A program made the translations under genes and the position numbers. Of a stretch of 64,000 bases of DNA, positions 30,179 to 52,255 are shown piece after piece (the stretch's first letter is position 1; every line of letters begins with the position of its first letter). This DNA comes from Haladaptatus sp. R4 (GTDB lineage: Archaea; Halobacteriota; Halobacteria; Halobacteriales; Haladaptataceae): NCBI RefSeq assembly GCF_001625445.1, contig NZ_LWHG01000011.1, positions 248,001-312,000 of the forward strand. Reading direction: 5' to 3'. A model generated the notes under the pieces. That model saw only the letters and a list, made by a program, of their open reading frames with translations, ran no database searches and was not told the origin of the DNA.

Positions 30179-30775
30179 TTAAAACGAAACGTTCGTTTCC
30201 ATGCCGTCGGTCGCGTCGTCCAAACCGTCCTGCTGGATGTCTCCTGTCATTCTATCCGATATCTCTCGATCCTGTAGGATGTTCTCGAACTCGTTTGTAT
30301 ACTGTTGGTTCATCGCTCTTGCCTCGTCTTTGGCTTCGAGGACGCGTTGATAGTGTCGCACGGTTGCCTCGCTGACGTCGAGTTCCGCCGCGCAATCAGC
30401 CGTCGAAACGCCGTCGTTGACGAGCATTCGGAGGCGCTCGATCTCGAACGGAGCCTCGGTATCCGAGAGCGTGAACAGATGGAGATCGATTCGGGAACGG
30501 GCCACCGACTCTTCTCGCTCGCCGAGCTCGGCGGCGATTTCGTCGTCGTCTTCACCCGCGTAGAATCGCCGAACGACCGCCGTCAACTGCTCGTCGTCGA
30601 GCGTCGTGTCGAACTCGTATCGGTCCCTCATTTCCGTCACGACGGCGAGCAGCTGCTCTTGGATTTTCTCCTCCGTGCTGAGTGAGCCGTGCGTCTCTTC
30701 CTGCCGCTCCGTGACTGTCGCCTCGTCCGTCATATTCAGGAACATGTCACGGAGTTCCTCGGTCTTCTTATCCAT
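30179..30775 (-). CDS. Cmi4-like (conditioned medium-induced) HTH protein
   Basis: A 198-residue soluble acidic protein beginning MDKKTEELRDMFLNMTDEATVTERQEE. It matches the haloarchaeal family annotated as conditioned medium-induced protein 4. A helix-turn-helix is visible at about 125-150 (VSTADCAAELDVSEATVRHYQRVLEAKDEAR), and an earlier repeat DDEIAAELGEREESVARSR resembles a second HTH. It is probably a transcription regulator linked to high cell density; that link is only from the family name. A TATA element (minus-strand TTTTTATAC, 30799-30807) lies 24-32 bases upstream. Confidence 0.78.
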   Translation of the reverse strand: MDKKTEELRDMFLNMTDEATVTERQEETHGSLSTEEKIQEQLLAVVTEMRDRYEFDTTLDDEQLTAVVRRFYAGEDDDEIAAELGEREESVARSRIDLHLFTLSDTEAPFEIERLRMLVNDGVSTADCAAELDVSEATVRHYQRVLEAKDEARAMNQQYTNEFENILQDREISDRMTGDIQQDGLDDATDGMETNVSF

Positions 30776-30856: not shown

Positions 30857-30886
30857 CGTCAACCGAAGTTCTAATACTGGTTGACG
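30857..30886 (+). promoter_or_regulatory. BirA-type operator overlapping the bioY promoter
   Basis: CGTCAACC (30857-30864) and its exact complement GGTTGACG (30879-30886) are separated by 14 bases. The half-site ending AACC and the 14-base spacing follow the BirA biotin-repressor pattern (AACC-N14/16-GGTT) known in bacteria and reported for some archaea. A TATA-like tctaatact lies in the spacer, about 24-32 bases before the bioY ATG, so bound repressor would block the basal factors. Confidence 0.75.
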
Positions 30887-49452: not shown

Positions 49453-50581
49453 ATGAAACGACGAACCTATCTCACGGCGACTGGGACGGCATTTGCCGGT
49501 CTGGCTGGCTGTCTCGGGAATTCCGACGACTCCGGCAGTTCCGGGGATTCCGGTTCCACGAGTTCGACCGGCGGTAAGTCCGCGAAGACGACGTCACAGA
49601 CCCAACTCAGCGGCACGCTGAACGTCGCAACGTACAGCGCGCTCGTGGACGCGCCGAGTACATCGCCCGGCGCGTGGCTGAAAAAGGAGTTCGAAAAGAA
49701 GTATCCCAAGGCGACGCTCAAGTGGCAAACTCCGGACAGCGAGGTCAACTACTACATCCAGCGAAAGGCACAGCACGTCGATATCGACGCGGACGTGTAC
49801 GTCGGTCTCAACGTGGACCAACTCATCACCATCGACCAGAAACTGGGCGGGACAAAGTTGTTCACCCCCGTCACCGACTCGCTCTCGAACTACGGTCACG
49901 TCAAAAAGGGCCTGAACTTCGACCCGAAAGGACGGGCGTCCCGTACGATACCGGCTACGTCAGCCTCGTCTACGACGAGACGAAAGTCGAGAATCCCGGT
50001 TCGTTCGAGGCGCTGACGAAGCCGAAATTCAAGGGTACGCTGCTGACCGAGAACGCCCAACAGGCCGCGACGGGGCGGGCGTTCCTGCTCTGGACGATCC
50101 ACGAGATGGGCGAGAAGAAGTATCTCGACTACTGGAGTCGGCTCTCGAACAACGACACCCAAATCCTCGGGTCGTGGGACGCGGCCTACACCGCCTACTC
50201 GAACGGCGAACGCCCCATCGTCGTCTCTTACTCCACTGACCAGGTGTACGCCCATCGTGAAGGCGAGAACATGAAGAAACACCAGATCGGCTTCCTGAAC
50301 GGACAGGGCTACGCCAACCCCGAGGGGATGGCGAAGTTCGCCGACACGGACTCCCCGAAACTGGCCGACGCGTTCCTCGACTTCATGCTCTCCAAGAAAG
50401 CCCAGTCGAAGGTTGCAACCCTCAACGTCGCGTTCCCATCGACCGACTGGCCGACCTCGGCAAGGAGTTCGACAAGTACGCCAAGGAACCCGACGAACCG
50501 GTCACCTACTCCTACGATCAACTCAAGGGCAACCTCGAAGGATGGGTTGATGAGTGGGCGCGCCAGATTGCGAGCAAGTAG
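49453..50581 (+). pseudogene. Thiamine-type ABC transporter substrate-binding lipoprotein, two frame breaks
   Basis: A ThiB-like binding protein. The N terminus KRRTYLTATGTAFAGLAGCLG is a Tat lipobox. The domain contains TLNVATYSALVDAPSTSPGAWLKKEF and, after a break near 49935-49940, VPYDTGYVSLVYDETKVENPGSFEALTK and RPIVVSYSTDQVYAH, typical of ThiB. A second break near 50434-50438 precedes LADLGKEFDKYAKEPDE. Two added bases give one 376-residue frame ending at 50581. The permease starts at the next base. Sequence errors are the likely cause. Confidence 0.85.
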
Positions 50582-52255
50582 ATGGATACCGGGCGCTGGC
50601 TCGAACGACACGCACTCGCCCTTCTCGGGATCGCGACCAGCGCCCTGCTCGTCGTTCTGTTCTACTATCCCGTCGCCATCGTTTTCGCCGACGCGGGCGG
50701 CATTTCTGCGTTTCTCGACGTACTGACCGACCACTTCTACGTCTTCGACATCTTCGGGTTCACGGCGTATCAGGCGCTCCTTTCCACGATTGCGAGCGTC
50801 GCCGTCGGCCTCCCGGGTGCGTACATCCTCTCGCGTTACGAGTTCCCGGGTCGGCGGACGATTCGCTCGTTGACCATCCTCCCGTTCGTCATGCCGTCCA
50901 TCCTCGTCGCCATCGGCTTCGTGGCGATGTTCGGTCAGAACGGGTTGTTCAACGATATCGTCGGCGTCGTGGGTCTCGGACCGTACTCCCTCCTGTACAA
51001 TCTACCCGCAATCGTCGCCGCACACGCCTTCTACAACGCGCCGCTCGTCGCCCGCGTGACGAACGCGGCGTGGGAGAGCGTCGATGCCCGCGAAGTCGAA
51101 ACCGCCCGGAGCCTCGGCGCTGGCCGCTTCCGCGCGTTTCGTGACGTGCTCATCCCACAGCTCCTTCCGGCGATTCTCACTGGAGCGCTTCTCACGTTCA
51201 TCTTCACGTTCATGTCGTTCCCCATCGTCCTCGCGCTGGGCGGGTTCCAGTACCAGACTGTGGAAGTCTGGGTGTACACGCTCGTCCAGCGTCTCGACTA
51301 CTCGCAGGCCGCCGTCCTCGCCATCCTCGAAACCTCTCTCTCGCTCGCACTGACCTACGCCTACCTTCGCTACGAGGCTCGGCAAGCCGCCGCCTCGCGC
51401 GCCAGCAGGCCGCTCGCCCGAAAACATCTCCTCTCGGGCGATACCGGTTTCGTCGAAACGCTCGAACGGACCGGCGTCGCGCTGTATCTCGTCGTCGTCC
51501 TCGTGCTGTTTCTCGGGCCGCTCGTCAGCACGGTTCTGGAAAGCGTCACCGGCCCGTCTGGTTTCACCCTGCGCTACTACCAGTTCCTCGTGACGCGGCA
51601 AGTGTCCGGCGCGTCCTTCCAGACGAAACCCGGCGTCGCCGTCCGTAACTCGCTCACGTTTGGTATCGGAACCCTGTTTATCGCGCTCCCGATGGGCGTC
51701 GTCATCTCCGTCCTGACGCGGGCGCGAAAGAGCCGAATCGTGGAAGCGGTGGCGATGGCCCCGCTCGCGGTGAGCGGCGTGATGGTCGGGTTGGGTATGC
51801 TCCGAGGTCTCGTCTTCGGGATTCCCATCGCCGGAACTCGAATTCAGGTGAGCGGCGCGATGGCCATCGTCGCGGCCCACGCCGTCGCCGCGTACCCGTT
51901 CGTCACGCGAAACGTCTCGCCCATGCTCGCCGGAATCGACCAGCGAACCGTCGAATCCGCCCGCTCGCTCGGCGCGACCCGCGTCCGGACGCTCATCGAC
52001 GTCGAACTCCCGCTCGTGGCGGTCGGATTGGCCGCCGGGGCGGCGTTCGCCTTCGCCATCAGCATCGGCGAGTTCGACTCGACAGTTATTCTTGCCACGG
52101 GCAGTAGCAGTTACACGATGCCCGTCGCAGTGCAGCGCTTCCTCGGAAAGCAAACCCTCGGTCCAGCGACGGCGATGGGGACCATCCTCCTCCTCGTCAC
52201 CGCCGTCAGTTTCGTCATCATCGACCGCCTCGGCGGGAGGTGGGAGAGTGGTTGA
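50582..52255 (+). CDS. Thiamine-type ABC transporter permease (fused double domain)
   Basis: A 557-residue permease with two binding-protein-dependent transport domains in one chain, as in ThiP. Each half has an EAA loop: WESVDAREVETARSLGAGRFRAFRDVLIPQLLP and IDQRTVESARSLGATRVRTLIDVELPL. About 12 helices are seen. It begins immediately after the binding protein stop and overlaps the ATPase gene by eight bases. Confidence 0.9.
   Translation: MDTGRWLERHALALLGIATSALLVVLFYYPVAIVFADAGGISAFLDVLTDHFYVFDIFGFTAYQALLSTIASVAVGLPGAYILSRYEFPGRRTIRSLTILPFVMPSILVAIGFVAMFGQNGLFNDIVGVVGLGPYSLLYNLPAIVAAHAFYNAPLVARVTNAAWESVDAREVETARSLGAGRFRAFRDVLIPQLLPAILTGALLTFIFTFMSFPIVLALGGFQYQTVEVWVYTLVQRLDYSQAAVLAILETSLSLALTYAYLRYEARQAAASRASRPLARKHLLSGDTGFVETLERTGVALYLVVVLVLFLGPLVSTVLESVTGPSGFTLRYYQFLVTRQVSGASFQTKPGVAVRNSLTFGIGTLFIALPMGVVISVLTRARKSRIVEAVAMAPLAVSGVMVGLGMLRGLVFGIPIAGTRIQVSGAMAIVAAHAVAAYPFVTRNVSPMLAGIDQRTVESARSLGATRVRTLIDVELPLVAVGLAAGAAFAFAISIGEFDSTVILATGSSSYTMPVAVQRFLGKQTLGPATAMGTILLLVTAVSFVIIDRLGGRWESG

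Follow-up and report, generated by a model that had tools for sequence, protein, structure and literature searches.

The inverted repeat upstream of bioY in Haladaptatus sp. R4 is, in our judgement, highly likely to be a BirA operator, at which this bifunctional enzyme, both biotin ligase and repressor, would repress bioYMN when biotin suffices; our case for this reading comes from comparison of sequences. In the window, by which we mean the whole 64-kb stretch of DNA that was analysed, positions 30857-30886 read CGTCAACC GAAGTTCTAATACT GGTTGACG. The two 8-nt arms of this inverted repeat match perfectly across a spacer of 14 nt, and the original prediction had described the element correctly to the base. 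A gap of 14 nt separates the end of the repeat from the start of bioY, the last repeat base lying 15 positions upstream of the ATG (30901). The pattern GTCAACC-N10..18-GGTTGAC matches once in the window compared with no match in 100 dinucleotide shuffles, and this is also its single match in the whole 4.9 Mb, 34-contig genome, where the reversed pattern has none. When up to three mismatches were allowed, the genome gave 158 matches against 157 for the reversed control; since these counts are equal we attribute the weaker matches to chance, and we claim no second target in this genome.

Table 1. Positions in the window of the proposed operator, the predicted promoter elements nested in it and the genes on either side
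Feature	Position	Strand	Basis
Proposed BirA operator, inverted repeat CGTCAACC-N14-GGTTGACG	30857..30886	.	Sequence and conservation upstream of bioY in haloarchaea
Left half-site GTCAACC	30858..30864	+	Comparison of bioY loci
Right half-site, GTCAACC read on the minus strand	30879..30885	-	Comparison of bioY loci
Predicted BRE, CGAAG (haloarchaeal consensus CGAAA)	30864..30868	+	Column counts over 87 sites; PMC4983044
Predicted TATA element TTCTAATA	30869..30876	+	Columns over 87 sites; PMC4983044; promoter inferred to be leaderless
bioY, biotin-specific S component, 194 aa	30901..31485	+	PF02632, E 2.7e-36
bioM-like ECF ATPase, 243 aa	31504..32235	+	PF00005
bioN-like EcfT transmembrane protein, 235 aa	32232..32939	+	PF02361
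Divergent HTH-like gene, rejected as dedicated regulator	30179..30775	-	Weak sigma-r4/GerE-type HTH matches

The genes downstream of the repeat had been taken for a complete biotin importer, and this was confirmed by the domain assignments of Table 1: bioY, the ECF ATPase and EcfT stand next to one another and, on these matches, make up a complete importer of the BioYMN type. On the other side, the divergent HTH-like gene starts about 80 nt from the repeat; its product is conserved in haloarchaea, is encoded beside bioY in many families and is present also where bioY is missing. A 372-aa ORF of a close relative (G008) has a homologue elsewhere in the window, at about 49453-50582, that changes frame, a possible frameshift.

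The main evidence comes from conservation. We compared 95 bioY loci from 94 genomes representing 11 haloarchaeal family groups and found the motif GT[A/C]AACC-N14-GGTT[T/G]AC before bioY in nearly every family group sampled. All 14 half-site positions agreed in 58 loci, 13 in 31, 12 in five and 11 in one, so that 89/95 loci score at least 13/14, and the spacing is 14 nt in 93/95; the controls reached at most 12/14 (270 shuffled upstream regions) and 11/14 (297 other windows). In the family to which strain R4 belongs, bioY is present in 28/28 genomes, and at each of the 27 loci that could be used GTCAACC-N14-GGTTGAC stands in the same place, perfectly in 24 and with one mismatch in three. The same site was found in named genomes of Halomicrococcus, Halobellus, Haloferax, Halorussus, Halobacterium, Halococcus, Halorubrum and others, where it most often starts 42-43 nt before the bioY ATG. 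Over 292 haloarchaeal genomes, GTMAACC-N14-GGTTKAC gave about 204 matches in 179 genomes and the reversed pattern five. Weak or displaced sites occur in a few haloarchaea, namely two genomes of group f7 (G153 and G057) and some Halorientalis. The half-sites of group f4 are mostly GTAAACC/GGTTTAC and those of the R4 family GTCAACC in 27/27 loci; the third half-site base is changed in both half-sites together between lineages.

The repeat appears to be wrapped around the core promoter. It had been said to cover the TATA region of bioY, and the TATA-like TTCTAATA does lie inside the 14-nt spacer, about 28 nt before the ATG. Among 87 aligned sites the half-sites are the invariant columns, and within the spacer CGAAG recurs on the left side only and TTnAT in the centre; the haloarchaeal consensus is CGAAA for the BRE and TTWT for the TATA element (PMC4983044). 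The distance of about 28 nt from TATA to ATG fits a leaderless bioY mRNA, and 72% of the protein-coding transcripts of Haloferax volcanii are leaderless (PMC4983044).

Because we traced those motif matches that do not lie at bioY, a second target came to light. In 25 genomes, all assigned to f3 groups, bioB begins with a GTG codon, placed by us from conservation, that overlaps the right half-site at a fixed offset, and the protein encoded is biotin synthase by TIGR00433 (334.8 bits, cut-off 225). The proposal that the same site might stand before other biotin genes is thus borne out: it is found at bioY throughout haloarchaea and at bioB in about 25 of the genomes. A TATA-like CTTTATC lies upstream of bioB, about 27 nt before the start. 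The operator would therefore occupy about -43 to -16 at bioY, where it straddles the TATA element, and about -19 to +9 at bioB, where it covers the start site; since the repeat is placed differently over the core promoter at the two genes, the simplest explanation is a repressor acting sterically. At one bioB locus (L231) a second copy of the repeat lies 123 nt upstream.

The distribution of BirA follows that of the site. An HTH-type BirA was found in 47/47 of the bioY genomes tested outside the R4 family and in 28/28 inside it, and nearly all the relatives searched have birA uninterrupted, as a single open frame. Among 15 sampled genomes that lack bioY, 13 also lack BirA and the exact site is present in 0/13 of these; the other two have retained BirA, and in G156, one of this pair, the only site lies at bioB. 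The orthologue in G008 carries HTH_11, ligase and BPL_C domains in one protein, and its alignment to solved bacterial BirA structures (1bia, 6apw) extends over its length. Across 77 haloarchaeal BirA sequences the recognition helix reads SR[N/A]AVW, and the N residue goes with C-type half-sites: genomes with N have two C half-sites in 29/31 cases and one in the remaining two, and genomes with A have zero, one and two in 22, 12 and 8 cases, respectively. The difference between SRNAVW and SRAAVW is possibly a change of DNA specificity. This covariation is a lead and not proof, because on the BirA tree N can be explained by as few as about 3-5 changes and the association is confounded by descent. 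A second biotin-ligase-like match without an HTH was seen in three genomes (G107:C1:1126219-1126986, G093:C1:609816-610151 and G267:C1:1700808-1701155).

The mechanism that we propose is modelled on bacterial BirA proteins. When biotin is sufficient BirA would make biotinyl-5'-AMP and, after biotinylation of its carrier-protein substrate is complete, BirA:biotinyl-AMP would dimerise, each winged HTH reading one half-site. The bound dimer, sitting over BRE/TATA, would block TBP/TFB and so turn the bioYMN importer off; when biotin is scarce the operator would be free. We consider occlusion of TBP/TFB likely because the spacer holds the predicted BRE and TATA elements. At bioB of other haloarchaea the operator, being downstream of TATA and over the transcription start and start codon, would instead block polymerase. 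The use of biotinyl-5'-AMP as co-repressor and dimerisation on DNA are known from the bacterial proteins, in part through PMC4016012; for the haloarchaeal site we infer that BirA binds the DNA, that the same co-repressor acts, that the transcript is leaderless and that the importer is repressed. The model of biotin repression by an HTH-containing biotin ligase, with which the original prediction ended, gains support as a prediction from the presence of an HTH-type birA gene together with sites before biotin genes, and biotin uptake in haloarchaea is very probably off when biotin is plentiful.

Strain R4 itself presents a complication. The search for an HTH-type birA, which had been suggested as a check, succeeded in that the genome contains one BirA homologue with an HTH (HTH_11 at 2.2e-11 plus part of the ligase domain), its sole HTH-BPL gene, on the minus strand of contig C28 at 295068-296112; the qualification is that the reading frame is interrupted in the assembly, so that the BirA of strain R4 may be non-functional. 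The interruption, a 106-nt tandem repeat with one unit of 50 nt and one of 56 nt, follows WPNDVLV and leaves three frames (188, 19 and 141 codons) that meet in GTGA, the next GTG start over the previous stop, with the HTH and half of the ligase domain in one frame and BPL_C in another. Neither unit length is in frame, so a single sequencing error does not by itself explain the break. Within the genome the insert matches only itself, so it is no dispersed repeat. In relatives the same loop of the BirA ligase part holds inserts that keep the frame and differ in length, indicating that expansion there recurs, and one relative (G006) has a similar duplication of the DVLVSE type.

One reading of this is that the operator is ancestral and that in strain R4 birA is now inactive and bioYMN constitutive, a possibility that is compatible with a BirA operator and that we regard as real, if rather doubtful. 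Consistent with it, the tandem repeat breaks the birA frame twice; the longer biotin carboxylase/biotin carrier gene (C28, about 215000-217000), which likely encodes the BirA substrate, is broken by two clean frameshifts, in the same direction and about 145 nt from each other; the open frame around the second biotin carboxylase match (C30:63001-63270) is only 108 aa long; and of the comparable frames in the window only about 1/62 is interrupted, which indicates that indels are not frequent everywhere. However, the operator and the importer are intact, the carboxylase pieces flanking the frameshifts are 92-96% identical to the nearest relatives, pointing to either very recent damage or draft errors, and the assembly is a draft in 34 contigs with estimated completeness of 95.85 and contamination of 4.64. 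Errors in the draft, a recent loss of biotin use or an enzyme split in two may lie behind the breaks in birA and the carboxylase gene. In the last case, termination-reinitiation at the overlaps would give a piece with the HTH and N-terminal ligase part and a piece with the C-terminal ligase part, and these would reassemble and repress bioY; we consider this improbable. In any event, the state of birA in this strain bears on strain R4 and not on the identity of the operator.

We also considered that the operator might belong to the divergent HTH-like protein acting as a local regulator of bioY, as its gene adjoins bioY in 27/27 loci of the R4 family and 44/55 named loci and its product gives the weak HTH matches listed in Table 1. 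This is very improbable and was rejected: the gene is absent within 1.5 kb in 28/28 bioY loci of groups f4 and f11, where the site nevertheless scores 13-14/14; one genome (G306) has bioY, the site and BirA and no detected homologue of the divergent gene; all 13 genomes without bioY, BirA and the site do have a homologue; and the BirA-type site stands before bioB as well. That the repeat is a chance palindrome or merely part of the core promoter is a reading to which we give almost no weight, for while the BRE and TATA elements inside it must account for part of the conservation, the half-sites flank these elements as the most invariant columns, change symmetrically between families, recur at bioB in another position relative to TATA and exceed all controls, and the comparative data refute this reading.

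With respect to known systems, the title of the 2002 paper by Rodionov and colleagues reportedly announces a BirA signal conserved in Eubacteria and Archaea. An archaeal BirA signal having been proposed in that year, the BirA-type element discussed here is of an already known type, as far as the citing papers through which the 2002 work is available to us convey it, and that work may contain some haloarchaeal sites. The BirA consensus attributed to Rodionov, Mironov and Gelfand (2002) is, as quoted in PMC545781, TTGTAAACC-[N14/15]-GGTTTACAA, and the sites of the delta-proteobacteria Geobacter and Desulfuromonas are given there as GTcAACC-[N14]-GGTTgAC. Set beside this consensus and its variants, GTCAACC-N14-GGTTGAC agrees with the BirA half-site and spacing, as the original prediction had claimed. 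Bacterial and haloarchaeal operators share the half-site core GT[A/C]AACC, the 14-nt spacer, bioY and bioB as targets and the family of the regulator. They differ in that the haloarchaeal half-site has C and G in place of the bacterial outer TT/AA, and in that the haloarchaeal spacer holds an archaeal BRE/TATA where the bacterial operator is associated with bacterial promoter elements. The arrangement at bioY of Firmicutes (Lactococcus lactis, PMC4861984; Streptococcus suis, PMC4877710) resembles ours in that an importer gene stands under a BirA palindrome at its promoter, but there the promoter is of the -35/-10 type with a ribosome binding site, and gel shifts were done on it, whereas the haloarchaeal site is a predicted one. 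BioR (GntR family) and BioQ also repress biotin genes; these are separate dedicated factors, and the haloarchaeal motif is of the BirA type.

In the literature available to us we found no binding or expression data for haloarchaeal BirA, and in the same, partly accessible literature neither a haloarchaea-wide survey nor a haloarchaeal bioB target nor the nesting of BRE/TATA in the operator. Our survey extends the BirA signal to bioY in eleven family groups of haloarchaea, some of which have it at bioB as well, and makes its architecture precise as an operator wrapped around an archaeal BRE/TATA. Cultivable hosts such as Haloferax, Halorussus, Halobellus and Halobacterium would allow a repressor of bacterial type to be studied directly at a eukaryote-like promoter, and the operator could serve as a biotin-controlled promoter in haloarchaeal genetics.
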